A DNA stretch of 18,406 bases, from positions 1-18,406 of the forward strand of contig JAPKYY010000033.1 in assembly GCA_026394095.1 (NCBI GenBank), read 5' to 3'. Below the pieces are notes generated by a model, which had not been told where the DNA came from, ran no database searches, and saw only the letters and a program-made list of their open reading frames with translations. Position numbers and translations under genes: made by a program. Below, one piece after another: positions 9,007 to 14,094 of the stretch. Source of the stretch: Acidobacteriota bacterium (lineage in GTDB: Bacteria > Acidobacteriota > Terriglobia > Bryobacterales > Bryobacteraceae). Position 1 is the stretch's first letter. Each line of letters opens with the position of its first letter.

Positions 9007-10089
9007 ATGCGTGCCTGGAATCGCGCTCGGCTCCTGTGGGGCTACCTTCGCCGTAAATCCCGGCTGAGCGCTCTGCCCGTCGAGTACATCGTCGAAACCA
9101 CGGCCAAATGCAACATTTATTGCCCGATGTGTCCTCGCGAGACGCACAAGCAACCTAAAGAAGACATGAGTGACGAGGTCTTTGAAGGGCTGGTGCGAGA
9201 AAGCAGCGACAGCGCCGAGCACATGATGCTGATTGGCCTGGGAGAACCGTTGCTCGACAACAAGATCTTCGAGCGAATTGAGTTCTGCGACCGGCACAAG
9301 ATCTCGACTCTGCTATCCACCAATGGCACGTTGCTCGATGAGAAGGCGGCCGAGCGTCTGCTTCAGACTCCCGTCGAGCACATCACACTCAGTTTTGACG
9401 GTGCTACGCAGGAAAGCTTCGAGTTTTATCGCAAGGGTGCCAAATTTGACCGTGTGCGCGAGAACTTCGTACGCTTTGCCAGGATGAAAGATGCCATGAA
9501 GGCAAAGGTGCAGGTGGTAGTCCAGATGGTGCGCATGGAGAAGAACTGGGACGAAGTAGAAGACTTTGAACGCTTCTGGAAAGCAATTCCGGGTGTGGAT
9601 CAAACGAGGGTCAAGGCAGACGAGACTGACCTGATGAGCCCGGATGGCGGCCATGCCCCGGGAGACTTCTCACACCCCTGCCACTACCTATGGCGCGGGC
9701 CGATGTATGTGAAACAGAACGGCGACGTGTATCCTTGCTGCCAAAGCTACATGCTGGATGGCAAGCCGGTGGGCAAGATTGGCGAGGCACCGCTTGAGCA
9801 GATCTGGAATTCAGCGGAGATGGAGCGCATGCGAAAACTCCACACTACCGGACGGGCCGGTGAGGTCGATATCTGCTCCAAGTGCCGGACGGCAATCCCG
9901 CATCCTCTTCTGGTAGCGGGCAGCCTCATCTTTCACGGTAGAACCGTTCGGAAGCTACTGCCCTGGGTAGAGAAACTGGCGTATTGGAGCCGGCTTCCGG
10001 TACAGCTGCTGCGCCCCCAAAAACAGGCACGCCCGCTTGGCAGAAAGCCGGCTGATGATCTGGTTCAGATCACTTCACCGAAAGACTGA
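9007..10089 (+). CDS. Radical SAM protein with SPASM-like C-terminal domain
   Basis: A 360-residue iron-sulfur enzyme. The radical SAM cluster motif is C35-x3-C39-x2-C42 in 'CNIYCPMC'; the SAM-binding 'LIGLGEPLLD' (75-84) and 'STNGTLL' (104-110) follow on a partial TIM barrel. The C-terminal part has C225, 'NGDVYPCC' (C244, C245) and 'ICSKC' (C290, C293), a SPASM/twitch pattern that would hold an auxiliary [4Fe-4S] cluster. After that comes a basic, partly amphipathic tail of about 60 residues that could touch membrane. SPASM enzymes often modify peptides or act in cofactor maturation, but no precursor peptide or transporter is next to it, so the substrate cannot be told. It stands alone on the plus strand and overlaps the end of the convergent anti-sigma gene by 20 bases. 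Confidence 0.92.
   Translation: MRAWNRARLLWGYLRRKSRLSALPVEYIVETTAKCNIYCPMCPRETHKQPKEDMSDEVFEGLVRESSDSAEHMMLIGLGEPLLDNKIFERIEFCDRHKISTLLSTNGTLLDEKAAERLLQTPVEHITLSFDGATQESFEFYRKGAKFDRVRENFVRFARMKDAMKAKVQVVVQMVRMEKNWDEVEDFERFWKAIPGVDQTRVKADETDLMSPDGGHAPGDFSHPCHYLWRGPMYVKQNGDVYPCCQSYMLDGKPVGKIGEAPLEQIWNSAEMERMRKLHTTGRAGEVDICSKCRTAIPHPLLVAGSLIFHGRTVRKLLPWVEKLAYWSRLPVQLLRPQKQARPLGRKPADDLVQITSPKD
10056..10072. terminator. Short stem-loop at convergent gene ends
   Basis: TGATCTG (10056-10062) and CAGATCA (10066-10072) form a perfect 7-bp inverted repeat around GTT, exactly where the radical SAM gene and the anti-sigma gene run into each other. There is no U-rich tail on either side, so it is at best a weak or Rho-assisted stop signal. 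Confidence 0.25.
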
Positions 10090-10678
10090 ATTCCCGCAGT
10101 ATTTCCTGTTGCCCGCCAGCTTTGAGCCTCAGCCAATACTGACCGGCTTCAAGCCCTGAAACGCTAAGCCTGCCGGAAATCAGATCCAGCTTGCCGGTCG
10201 ATTTCAGCTGACCGTCCACTGCCGACAACTCCCAGTCGTAAGCAGTCGCCGGAAGACCGGTTAGATCCGGCTTGAGGTTCAACTTTTTGCCAGCAGGTGC
10301 CGTGAGCCTGGTTTCGTTACGCACAGCCACCAGGTCGATACTTGCAGGCTCATTGTTTTGCTCGAGCAGCCCAGGAACAAAAACCATCAAAGCAGCACTC
10401 GCAGCGATTGCGATCGGTAGATAATTGCGTGATTTGTTTGGTTCCGGGTTTGCAGCCACTGCCTTAGCCCCGGCGACAACAGCCTCCACAAATCCGTCCA
10501 TTTTTTCGAGCCTTGTCTGGCAATAGCCGCAGACAAGAATGTGCTCCTCCACAACAGCGATGTCTTCCTCCGACGACATTCGACCGAGTGAATACACCTC
10601 CAGTGCATCCTCGGTCAGGTGGGATCCCTTGAGAATCTGCGACGCAGATTGATCCCGTTCAGGCAAACGCCTATCCAT
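10070..10678 (-). CDS. Membrane anti-sigma factor-like protein (zf-HC2 type)
   Basis: A 202-residue protein with the plan of a transmembrane anti-sigma factor. The cytoplasmic N-terminus (1-85) holds 'EEHILVCGYCQTRLE', an HxxxCxxC motif (H46, C50, C53) as in zinc-binding anti-sigma domains, preceded by 'LTEDALEVYSLGRMS'. One membrane helix follows ('YLPIAIAASAALMVFVPGLL', 86-105). The outer 95 residues are beta-rich, and 'GQYWLRLKAGG' resembles an Ig-like domain. Its expected partner is the ECF sigma factor encoded just upstream; holding that sigma at the membrane is inferred from the motif and operon position. The ATG at 10678 is backed by a GGAGG six bases away. The same frame continues upstream beyond a TGA for 25 more codons. 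Alternatively it could be a sensor that does not bind sigma. Confidence 0.82.
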   Translation of the reverse strand: MDRRLPERDQSASQILKGSHLTEDALEVYSLGRMSSEEDIAVVEEHILVCGYCQTRLEKMDGFVEAVVAGAKAVAANPEPNKSRNYLPIAIAASAALMVFVPGLLEQNNEPASIDLVAVRNETRLTAPAGKKLNLKPDLTGLPATAYDWELSAVDGQLKSTGKLDLISGRLSVSGLEAGQYWLRLKAGGQQEILREFSLSVK

Positions 10679-10684
10679 TCATGG

Positions 10685-10689
10685 CCTCC
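10685..10689 (-). promoter_or_regulatory. Ribosome-binding site of the anti-sigma-like gene
   Basis: GGAGG on the minus strand, 6 bases before the ATG at 10678. It settles that ATG as the start even though the reading frame is also open for 25 codons on the other side of the TGA at 10679-10681. Confidence 0.7.
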
Positions 10690-10697
10690 AGTACGAT

Positions 10698-10730
10698 GTC
10701 GCCGATGCGGGGGAGGATACTTCCGGCGAC
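10698..10730 (-). repeat. Inverted repeat between sigma and anti-sigma genes
   Basis: GTCGCCG (10698-10704) and CGGCGAC (10724-10730) are perfect 7-bp arms around a 19-base loop in the 74-base gap. In the mRNA the stem would form just before the GGAGG of the anti-sigma gene and could modulate its translation. It lacks a U-rich tail, so it is unlikely to be a terminator. Confidence 0.35.
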
Positions 10731-10752
10731 TGGTTCGTGTATTGGAGTAGTG

Positions 10753-11025
10753 TCATGAGGCGGTTCTTTTTCTCACAAAAAATGACTTTAGATTACTTTT
10801 AGCCATCCGCCGCCGGCCTTCGTCGCTGAACCGCTGCTTGGCTCGAGACTTGAGAAGTCGAAATTGGGTGTCGTTGAGGCCCATTTCCTCACATATTTGT
10901 TCCTGAGGCTGCTCGAGCAGATAAAAACGCGTCAGAATCTCCCGATCCCGACGGGAGCAGTCACGCAGAATGTCTTCCATGATTTGAGAGTTTTGCGACC
11001 GGATCGCTCCTTCCTCCGTGCTCAT
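10753..11025 (-). CDS. ECF sigma factor, region 4 half
   Basis: A 90-residue reading frame from the first ATG after the TAG. It holds sigma region 4: 'LRDCSRRDREILTRFYLLEQ', then the helix-turn-helix 'EQICEEMGLNDTQFRLLKSR' (about residues 41-60) that would read the -35 element, and a basic tail. No clear Shine-Dalgarno sequence precedes the ATG, so independent translation would rely on reinitiation 66 bases after the TAG. A two-subunit sigma factor with regions 2 and 4 on separate chains has a precedent in Bacillus subtilis SigO-RsoA, although there the two genes are not halves of one frame. The helix-turn-helix itself shows no damage, which argues that any loss is recent. Confidence 0.7.
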   Translation of the reverse strand: MSTEEGAIRSQNSQIMEDILRDCSRRDREILTRFYLLEQPQEQICEEMGLNDTQFRLLKSRAKQRFSDEGRRRMAKSNLKSFFVRKRTAS

Positions 11026-11088
11026 GTGCGAATCTGCAATCTTTACGTATCCATCGATATCCAGCTCGTCGCGCCTCCGCGTGTAATT

Positions 11089-11478
11089 CTACTCGATGAA
11101 GCAGGCAATCTGCCGGCGCACAATGGTGCGCACAAAACCCATCAGCCGTTCAGGGTCTCTCAATTCTCCGCGCTGGATTGCTTGTACGACGATTACGAAG
11201 GTGTCGTGTACCCGGTCATCGATATCCTGGCGACCTAGTTGGCGAACGATGAGAAATTTGATGCCGCGAGAAAAAAGCGTGTAGAGTTCTTCGAGGGCTG
11301 GCTGGTCGTTGGCTTGAATTCGCTGCACCAGATCGGTCCAGTTGATGTCCTGTGTCGGACCTGGCGGCGGCGCCAGGGCAATTGGGCCCTCCGCCTGTAA
11401 ATTCGGATCGACACCAGCAGTATCTTTCTGCCTATCCTCAATACGCGAAGGTTCGTCAATGGATTGAATGACTAGCAT
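11089..11478 (-). CDS. ECF sigma factor, region 2 half (ends at TAG)
   Basis: This 129-residue product would carry sigma region 2, which binds the beta-prime subunit and melts the -10 element. After a 40-residue polar, proline-rich leader it reads 'WTDLVQRIQANDQPALEELY', then 'FLIVRQLGRQDIDDRVHDTF' and 'LMGFVRTIVRRQI', the standard region 2.1-2.4 helices of ECF proteins. It stops at TAG just after region 2, before the linker, so it lacks the -35-binding domain. The ATG at 11478 comes three bases after the CHAT gene's TGA, so the two are translationally coupled. It could work only with the region 4 piece supplied separately, by readthrough, or if the stop is an error. Confidence 0.8.
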   Translation of the reverse strand: MLVIQSIDEPSRIEDRQKDTAGVDPNLQAEGPIALAPPPGPTQDINWTDLVQRIQANDQPALEELYTLFSRGIKFLIVRQLGRQDIDDRVHDTFVIVVQAIQRGELRDPERLMGFVRTIVRRQIACFIE

Positions 11479-11481
11479 GAA

Positions 11482-13962
11482 TCAGCCTTTAGAAATCGCA
11501 AGATAAGCCGCCCAATAGGACGGCTTTGAGGTCCATCCGCCTTGGCGGATCATTTTCAGTTGTGCGGCTCGCAGCGACTCGGCAGCGGCTCTCGGACTCC
11601 ACTTCTGCTGGATTAATTCTTGATAAAAAGCCGGAAAAATCGGCCCATCTGTATCCTCAGTTGGCCACAACGTGGCGACAACGGTACTGACGCCAGAAAT
11701 AAGAAATGCCCTGGATAAACCGTTGATTCCAATACCTGAAATGACTTCTCCGGTTGATGAGTTGCAGCCGGAGAGTACAACGAGCTTTGTTTGGGTTCGC
11801 ACAGCATTCAAGTCAAGCGAGCTGAAAAGACTGGTTCCTGATGGCCCTTTTGCAGGACTCATTGCGATGTTCAAGAGGTTGGGGCTACCCACCTGAGGGA
11901 CGAAATGCGTGGACAGGTGCAGAATATCGGGCGACTGGCGCAATGCAGTCTCAAGCGTCTCTACTGTTGCCGATACACCTGTATGCTCTGTGACGAGCCA
12001 GCTTTGATTCTTTATCGTATTCAAGCTGTTTCGGAGTTCTTTGGCTGAGGCCGGTAGCCGATTTAGCTCCAATTTGCCAAAGGAAATATTTTTCAATGGG
12101 GTCAATCGCCGGTCTGCCTGGTTGTAAACAGCGTCACCGATCCCAACAGCCTGACGATTCCATTGCTGACTCGCTTCCGTTTGCAGAAAGATGGCGGAAG
12201 GCAAAACGCGCAGGCTGTGATCTTGAACAAGGTACTGCGTACCTGCCCTGTTGGTAGGCAGTGCCGCTATAGGAAGTGTCGAAAGTTCTTGATCTAACAC
12301 CATTGTCCAGAATGGAGTAGTGCGATGGGCGTATAAATCTTCTCCGAACAATTGCTTAGAAAGTTCCATTCCGGTACTAGAGTTTCCGTTTTGGGATGGA
12401 TCCTGAATTTCTTTGCGAAATTGTGTTACCCATTGCATCAATTGCTGTCGCGAGGCGATACGCCGCGCGGTGATTCCTTTTCGGGTTGCGGTCCAGGCAA
12501 GCGAATACGGTTCGGCCAGATAGAAGGAGAAAACGACTTCATCTGGAGATAAGGACTGAATCCACTCTTTGATTTTTGGGGCACCGTCAAGCTTGGATTG
12601 AGGTATGTTGAGCCCAGCCTGCATCTCAATAACGTGCAGCTTCCTTTCCAATTCAAGAAGTTTTGGCTCAGCTTCCGTATCTCGGGGTATGTTTGCCATC
12701 TGGAGCTTTCGAAAACTGGAGAGAGTTGACCAATATTCACTGGGGAGTCGGTTGGCTAAGTCAGAAGCCGGGAATTGAGAAGCTCGCATACTGGCGAAGC
12801 GTGCTTCCTCGGCAATCCAGAAGGACTCCGCGGCTGCTTCGGGCTGGTCGAGTGAAAATTCTGAATGGGTCATCGCGCTCAAAAAGGAATTTTGAATTTC
12901 GTAGTTCAAACTCACTTCAAAATTCAAAAAAGCGGCGTCAGACGGTAAGACTTCCATGCGCCAGGCGCGTGCTCTCGTCATTACCCTTCGCAGTGCTGGA
13001 AGCGCGCTGCCAAAATCTCCCTTGGCGAGCGAAATTTGGGCCTCTTCTCGATCCATTAGCAGCAGATGCATTGGCGTACGGTTTGAAGGATCAAGGCTCC
13101 TTGCCACCTGAAGCAGCAAGCTGGCTCCATGCAGATCATTGCGATGCCTCAGTATTACAGCGAGTTCCAGCGCATCACGGAGCCTGCCTTTTTCCTGGAA
13201 AATCGATCTTAATCGGAATGCTTCCAGGGAATACTTCTCCGCTTCCTCAAAATTCTTCAACCTGACCAGCGCCTGGCTATATGCGGCAAAAACCCAGGCG
13301 CGCTTTAATTCTCTAAGACTTTCAGGCCACTTCTCATACTTCTTTTTGTTGGCCGAAATGACGGCCGGTGACGCCTCTAATGTTGATTCTTTTAGCGCCC
13401 TTTCAAAGGCCAACCTTGCCTCACCTGCCCTCCCGAGGCGCGTAAATACATTCATTTGAAGCAGGTAGGAAGCAAGCCTCCCCTCAGGGTGAAGTGCTGA
13501 GGCATCTAGTGGGTATGCCAGCAATAAATCAGCAGCGCTTTTCACGTCGCCCATTTCCAGAAGAAGGCTGGCTATGTTATTTACGGCTACCCCCTCCCAT
13601 TGTTTGAGTTTGTGAAATTTTGCTTCTTCGAGCGCTTTTCTGTGTTGTCCCATGGCCTCTCGATAAGCCGAAATTGACTGATAACAGGCTGCAATGTTGT
13701 TAAGAAATTGAATTGCAAGCTCTGAATTGCCTTCCTTCAGAGCATATTCCCTCGCTTGCTGGTATTGAATTATTGCTGCTTCGAAGTCTTGCTTCATTAC
13801 CAACTGGAAGGCCAAGGTCCGTGCATTCTGCAAACGCGGCGAGGGGGCGGCCTTGCTGGACCCGGACGTCGCGCCTTGATTGGCTCCGCTTTTTAGGGCA
13901 CACCCTGTGAGGGATAGTAAAAATAGGAGTACAAGATGAAACAGTAGAAATTGCCGGTGCAT
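11482..13962 (-). CDS. TPR-CHAT lipoprotein, caspase-like protease candidate
   Basis: An 826-residue protein from the ATG at 13962. It starts 'MHRQFLLFHLVLLFLLSLTG' followed by Cys21, a lipoprotein signal peptide with lipobox L-T-G-C, so the mature protein is probably lipid-anchored outside the cytoplasmic membrane. Residues about 40-400 are helical repeats of TPR type, e.g. 'AIQFLNNIAACYQSISAYRE' and 'FEEAEKYSLEAFRLRSIFQE'. The C-terminal third is a CHAT domain (caspase/HetF-associated with TPRs): 'ILHLSTHFVP' has the catalytic His (H686), 'LVVLSGCNSSTG' the catalytic Cys (C733), followed by 'GLSRAFLISGVSTVVATLWP'. Both residues of the dyad are kept. The frame extends to a TTG at 14082 or an ATG at 14031, but those starts would bury the signal peptide. 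It precedes the sigma and anti-sigma genes. Its G+C looks lower than that of its neighbours. Substrate unknown. Confidence 0.9.
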   Translation of the reverse strand: MHRQFLLFHLVLLFLLSLTGCALKSGANQGATSGSSKAAPSPRLQNARTLAFQLVMKQDFEAAIIQYQQAREYALKEGNSELAIQFLNNIAACYQSISAYREAMGQHRKALEEAKFHKLKQWEGVAVNNIASLLLEMGDVKSAADLLLAYPLDASALHPEGRLASYLLQMNVFTRLGRAGEARLAFERALKESTLEASPAVISANKKKYEKWPESLRELKRAWVFAAYSQALVRLKNFEEAEKYSLEAFRLRSIFQEKGRLRDALELAVILRHRNDLHGASLLLQVARSLDPSNRTPMHLLLMDREEAQISLAKGDFGSALPALRRVMTRARAWRMEVLPSDAAFLNFEVSLNYEIQNSFLSAMTHSEFSLDQPEAAAESFWIAEEARFASMRASQFPASDLANRLPSEYWSTLSSFRKLQMANIPRDTEAEPKLLELERKLHVIEMQAGLNIPQSKLDGAPKIKEWIQSLSPDEVVFSFYLAEPYSLAWTATRKGITARRIASRQQLMQWVTQFRKEIQDPSQNGNSSTGMELSKQLFGEDLYAHRTTPFWTMVLDQELSTLPIAALPTNRAGTQYLVQDHSLRVLPSAIFLQTEASQQWNRQAVGIGDAVYNQADRRLTPLKNISFGKLELNRLPASAKELRNSLNTIKNQSWLVTEHTGVSATVETLETALRQSPDILHLSTHFVPQVGSPNLLNIAMSPAKGPSGTSLFSSLDLNAVRTQTKLVVLSGCNSSTGEVISGIGINGLSRAFLISGVSTVVATLWPTEDTDGPIFPAFYQELIQQKWSPRAAAESLRAAQLKMIRQGGWTSKPSYWAAYLAISKG

Positions 13963-13971
13963 CTTACTTAG

Positions 13972-14003
13972 TCCTAGAAGTACCAGACCTGGTACTTCTA
14001 GGA
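13972..14003. promoter_or_regulatory. 32-bp palindrome upstream of the CHAT gene
   Basis: TCCTAGAAGTACCAG (13972-13986) and CTGGTACTTCTAGGA (13989-14003) are perfect 15-base arms around the dinucleotide AC. The element ends 9 bases before the ATG at 13962. As DNA it could be an operator for a dimeric regulator; as RNA it would form a strong hairpin next to the start codon. On the minus strand TATATT (14003-14008), a fair -10 hexamer, touches its outer edge, so it would span the transcription start; I found no matching -35. Confidence 0.7.
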
Positions 14004-14094
14004 ATATATCAGATTTTTCGCTTAGGCCCATACCTAACTCGGAAATTTCCACAACAAATCCACGTAGGATGGGCCTTGGCAAGAAATTTCTCGA

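Follow-up and report, generated by a model that had tools for sequence, protein, structure and literature searches.

An extracytoplasmic function (ECF) sigma factor gene on the minus strand (10753-11478) is interrupted by an in-frame TAG codon in the window, i.e. the whole 18,406-nucleotide stretch of Acidobacteriota contig JAPKYY010000033.1 that was analysed. We consider it about 90% probable that this is an ordinary sigma factor gene of a conserved operon, in which the private TAG of this one assembly represents either a very recent nonsense mutation or a consensus error; the odds of the two are roughly equal. In the case of a nonsense mutation the TAG would remove region 4, and the truncated product would probably be inactive. 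If real, the stop would represent the natural loss of one sigma factor. As it is, nonsense codons that occur in a single draft genome are commonplace, and this one matters little. Of the four options listed in the original prediction, two fit the data: a nonsense mutation of recent origin and a read error. The other two, a two-chain sigma factor and readthrough, find no support in the related genomes, the tRNAs, the restart signals or the predicted structure, as discussed below.

The minus-strand triplet at 11091-11089 reads TAG (CTA at 11089-11091 on the plus strand) and corresponds to codon 130 of the gene. With TAG read as X, positions 10753-11478 encode 241 residues, and this is the single internal stop, which confirms the predicted break in the frame. 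Sequence, relatives and the predicted model of the intact relative P0002 all place the stop near the end of region 2. The first half (11092-11478, minus strand, 129 codons) comprises a variable N-terminus and sigma region 2, and the second half (10753-11088, minus strand) the end of the region 2 helix, the linker and sigma region 4. Neither piece contains a further stop, and the neighbouring genes are open as well. Matches to domain models are marginal: the first piece scores 18.5 bits against Sigma70_r2, short of the curated cut-off (24); the second, with 25.9 bits against Sigma70_r4_2, just exceeds its cut-off (25.7). P0002 itself falls below both cut-offs (19.5 bits for region 2, 23.2 bits for region 4). 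Taken together, the matches of the pieces, those of P0002 and the predicted model indicate a protein with regions 2 and 4 only and a short linker, which is the architecture of ECF (group IV) sigma factors; the single continuous chain of that group is found in the relatives and is broken here by the TAG. No solved structure was found for the sigma family profile at E <= 0.001, and literature searches listed no paper that, judged by title and abstract, dealt with this sigma gene.

Codon 130 was examined in relatives by a DNA search of 101 genomes (the window's own and 100 relatives), of which 75, among them each of the seven from the same genus, gave a match at E <= 0.001. In these seven the codon is always a sense codon (AAG in four, AAA in two and CGC in one); in three of them (G002, G004 and G007) the sigma gene is truncated by the end of its contig. 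It had been proposed to ask whether the TAG is conserved in homologues; the stop is found in none of the seven. The suggested origin by a CAG-to-TAG change is unlikely, because relatives have Lys (AAG or AAA) or Arg codons at this position and not the Gln codon CAG. A protein alignment of 34 relatives, picked from the best 120 of 4570 matches, has Lys at residue 130 in 30 cases, Arg in three and Ser in one. This result is partly given by construction, since predicted proteins in a database never contain internal stops, and the DNA evidence therefore weighs more.

A conserved split of the gene was rejected on these grounds. Besides its absence from the same-genus genomes, stops flagged in three other same-family genomes (G021, G033 and G013) proved to be natural C-terminal ends of normal genes. 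This check covered the best match of each of the three; among the matches listed, the nine other rows with a flagged stop are all weaker (E 1e-12 or higher). The nearest protein among the matches listed, P0002, is intact and 97% identical to the window sigma factor. Generally, the intact same-genus orthologues (G003 and G007; P0002-P0012) are the same gene, with proteins that are 85-97% identical and with the same operon where the contig reaches, but unlike the window copy they have Lys at residue 130 and no internal stop.

The very close protein P0031 (198 aa) also has Lys at residue 130, but 43 residues of region 4 are missing in frame. This gap may be a second, different lesion in the species group, either real or an assembly effect.

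Private changes were counted in the window copy and in those of G003 and G007. A synonymous change was scored only if the other two copies had identical codons, resulting in an undercount in all three copies. The sigma gene has 32 private synonymous and 7 non-synonymous changes in the window (stop included), compared with 45 and 8 in G003 and 27 and 3 in G007. As judged from these codon counts the gene is under purifying selection and has not undergone a long decay. Thus, the break would be either very recent or not real, and we infer that the change to TAG is recent or artificial. For the anti-sigma gene of the same operon the corresponding counts are 17 and 4 in the window, and 19 and 23 and 15 and 16 in the two relatives.

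The most plausible of the competing explanations, although still very improbable, is an older pseudogene under decay. In its favour, the stop is accompanied by S126C, N144Y and P154T within 29 codons, substitutions that occur in none of the 34 aligned relatives. However, the balance of private synonymous and non-synonymous changes is much like that in intact relatives, and both pieces as well as the neighbouring genes have stayed open. Within the sigma core (residues 46-241) the number of private residue changes at the DNA level is five in the window, four in G003 and one in G007, whereas at the protein level, based on the 34-relative alignment, 11 of the 12 close proteins have 0-1 such changes and the remaining one has 4. 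The two yardsticks differ, and whether the window copy looks unusual depends on which of them is used. Its core changes are at residues 126, 130, 144, 154 and 239, the first four being those within the 29 codons. The change at residue 239 is common to the window copy and P0031. Pro154 is invariant in all 34 aligned relatives. The clustering of the first four could reflect consecutive local errors in the consensus, or a constraint that was lost after a very recent break, and proves neither. A transversion signature of errors was also considered, since conserved sites with a private change have all undergone transversions. It was dropped because the counts for six genes are unremarkable (private non-synonymous transitions/transversions 62/78 in the window, 47/79 in G003 and 41/48 in G007).

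TAG is in normal use as a stop codon in this genome. In the window, as originally predicted, it terminates ordinary genes, namely 5 of the 18 frames taken as genes, including those ending at 672, 669 and 1230. Two of these genes, 1-672 on the plus strand and 669-1223 on the minus strand, are convergent and overlap by four bases, so that the CTAG at 669-672 supplies both TAG stops. In a 399 kb sample, which includes the window and counts about 8 kb twice (three tRNA loci lie on contigs that were also taken whole), TAG is the commonest stop after open segments of >300 codons (TAG 97, TGA 64, TAA 53; n=214) and is thus far from rare, as a recoded codon would be. For a comparison of this stop census with G003, 400 kb of G003 plus L035 overlapped the sample by 24.6 kb, of which 7.8 kb were the window; this is too little. 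A search for an amber suppressor tRNA, which had also been proposed, identified the anticodon CTA (CUA) in none of the 29 tRNAs found, an incomplete set from a genome that is 88.9% complete. Similarly, no selenocysteine tRNA scored above the cut-off in this incomplete set. Amber recoding was rejected as very improbable on the basis of stop usage and, less firmly, of the tRNAs.

A scan of the 399 kb for in-frame stops gave nine candidates, of which one is the sigma gene and one (L048:707) is the border of two genes; the other seven, on visual inspection, look like gene borders or a shadow frame. A second private TAG was found elsewhere in the assembly (L075:1885-1887, G000:C368), in an ABC-F ATPase gene, at the position of the signature serine. 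This site is a serine in all six same-genus genomes compared. The scan overlooked this TAG and is therefore of limited sensitivity. The ABC-F TAG is the single in-frame stop in 200 assembly-wide domain matches of five families (PF00005, 1 of 43; PF08281, 0 of 35; PF12704, 0 of 39; PF00072, 0 of 61; PF00069, 0 of 22). The sigma gene is among the 35 PF08281 matches and does not count as interrupted there, because its stop is outside the region 4 domain. A control with ABC domains in eight genomes (484 matches) showed no stop among the matches listed, but it says little, as the ABC-F match of the assembly itself was too weak for listing.

A private stop at a conserved ABC-F serine suggests that the assembly contains consensus errors or strain variation, and less weight should be placed on the sigma TAG for this reason. 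The assembly, which we take for a MAG, is a fragmented draft of 1077 contigs. This fragmentation and the second private TAG favour a consensus error or a recent nonsense mutation as the source of the stop in the sigma gene.

The ABC-F gene could also be read the other way. Readthrough or recoding of the amber codon, giving a low level of full-length sigma factor, has in its favour this second in-frame TAG at a conserved serine in the same genome, both in-frame stops seen being TAG. We regard this explanation as very improbable, slightly more so than an old pseudogene: TAG is the commonest stop, the tRNAs found include no suppressor, and the four other families are free of in-frame stops. Furthermore, the residues of relatives differ between the two sites (mostly Lys in the sigma gene, Ser in the ABC-F gene), which argues against one reassigned meaning of the codon.

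According to the original prediction the break falls in the linker between the domains, where a split sigma factor could still work. This is not clearly so. The region 2 match of P0002 extends to residue 131, and in a predicted model of this protein, obtained with an alignment of 34 sequences (mean pLDDT 73.8, pTM 0.54), two helical parts are separated by a low-confidence loop at 142-153. The N-terminal part has helices at 41-44, 47-55, 59-81, 86-102 and 109-141, the C-terminal part at 154-172, 176-187, 192-199 and 203-239. Residue 130 is inside the last region 2 helix (109-141), and the loop comes only after it. Mean pLDDT is 89 at residues 121-130 and 67 at residues 131-140, the end of the helix. 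The position of the stop inside a predicted helix reduced the odds that we give to a two-chain sigma factor, which had been slight from the start, to an even lower value.

In such a factor, regions 2 and 4 would be made separately by termination and restart and would cooperate like SigO-RsoA of Bacillus subtilis, a two-subunit sigma factor that consists of two separate proteins from two genes (PMC8103513). The likeness would be that regions 2 and 4 sit on two chains; the difference is that the window has a single gene, interrupted by a private stop and lacking a proper start for the second half. After the sigma stop no in-frame ATG, GTG or TTG with a ribosome site was found. The first in-frame ATG of the second half, at 11025, corresponds to residue Met152 in the intact protein and is not preceded by a ribosome site. 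The sole restart signal seen, a weak one, is a GGAGG (codons 134-135) followed by an in-frame CTG (11062-11078, minus strand). The GGAGG is 9 bases ahead of the CTG (11064-11062), which is 24 bases past the sigma stop. A synonymous difference at codon 135, absent from the seven same-genus genomes, contributes to the GGAGG. Of the 83,162 codon positions counted in long frames, 3.4% have a signal of this class, or 2.2% when CTG is disregarded; the sigma gene has zero of the latter.

Searches with the separate halves also yielded no counterpart of a split protein. With the first half, no 129-residue protein was found in the best 120 of 789 matches; six matches of near length (P0124, P0148, P0155, P0179, P0226 and P0230) have ends that differ from the stop position, and P0122 and P0123 end earlier. 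With the second half, two proteins that contain region 4 only (P0233 and P0234, in the best 120 of 319) have starts that correspond to Met152 and Met167 in close relatives; the contigs that carry them are no longer than 1148 and 1427 bases. More distant matches, among those listed, begin at the conserved internal Met113, and P0238, P0239 and P0245 begin with a letter other than Met, as fragments would. Judging from these starts at Met113, we take P0233 and P0234 to be probable fragments called from internal start codons.

A two-chain sigma factor is therefore the least probable explanation: the stop does lie between two DNA-binding domains, a GGAGG stands ahead of an in-frame CTG and both halves are otherwise nearly unchanged, but the stop is private to one assembly among the genomes compared, CTG is a poor start behind a commonplace signal, a predicted helix is cut, and Pro154 of the second half is changed despite its invariance. 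Equally improbable is a sigma factor that is just beginning to split: translation would terminate at the TAG and, coupled to this, restart at the CTG that follows the new GGAGG, giving a region 4 chain that works with the region 2 chain and the anti-sigma factor.

The conserved operon to which the interrupted gene belongs may be worth more attention than the stop. It spans 10070-14082 on the minus strand and consists of TPR-CHAT, ECF sigma factor and anti-sigma candidate genes, an arrangement that is conserved in same-family genomes. The upstream gene (11482-14082, minus strand) is open and encodes TPR repeats and a CHAT protease-like domain (PF12770, 149.8 bits); its stop codon ends 3 bases before the sigma ATG. 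The CHAT domain keeps the candidate His and Cys in HLSTH and LSGCNS, which are presumably its catalytic motifs. The downstream gene (10070-10678, minus strand) is also open and encodes a candidate anti-sigma factor with the motif HILVCGYC (H-x3-C-x2-C), although its match to a ChrR-type model is weak (14.1 bits, far below the cut-off). Among 29 loci (L006-L034), the best-scoring sigma matches besides the gene itself, a CHAT relative is found upstream on the same strand at 26; of the three loci without one, L009 and L012 lie at the end of a contig. Relatives of the H-x3-C-x2-C protein are found downstream on the same strand at 23 of the 29, with two of the six misses (L010 and L021) at contig ends; the matches of the window protein to anti-sigma models are weak, and it is a candidate anti-sigma factor.

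Csx29 is a TPR-CHAT protease whose substrate, Csx30, inhibits a sigma factor (PMC10028731). Like the Csx29/Csx30/CASP-sigma set of type III-E CRISPR systems described there, the operon encodes a TPR-CHAT protease-like protein together with an ECF sigma factor and its likely inhibitor. In contrast to that set, none of the window proteins scanned was named as a type III CRISPR effector, and the candidate inhibitor would be the H-x3-C-x2-C protein, the proteolysis of which is putative. By analogy, the operon is possibly a non-CRISPR parallel of Csx29-Csx30-CASP-sigma.

The same assembly has an uninterrupted paralogue of the sigma factor on another contig (L002:425-1162, G000:C501; 49% identical), and loss of the interrupted copy need therefore not be lethal. 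In the same-genus genomes the matches besides the orthologue, among those listed, are partial (G002 and G004) or much weaker. The paralogue has an H-x3-C-x2-C neighbour of its own.
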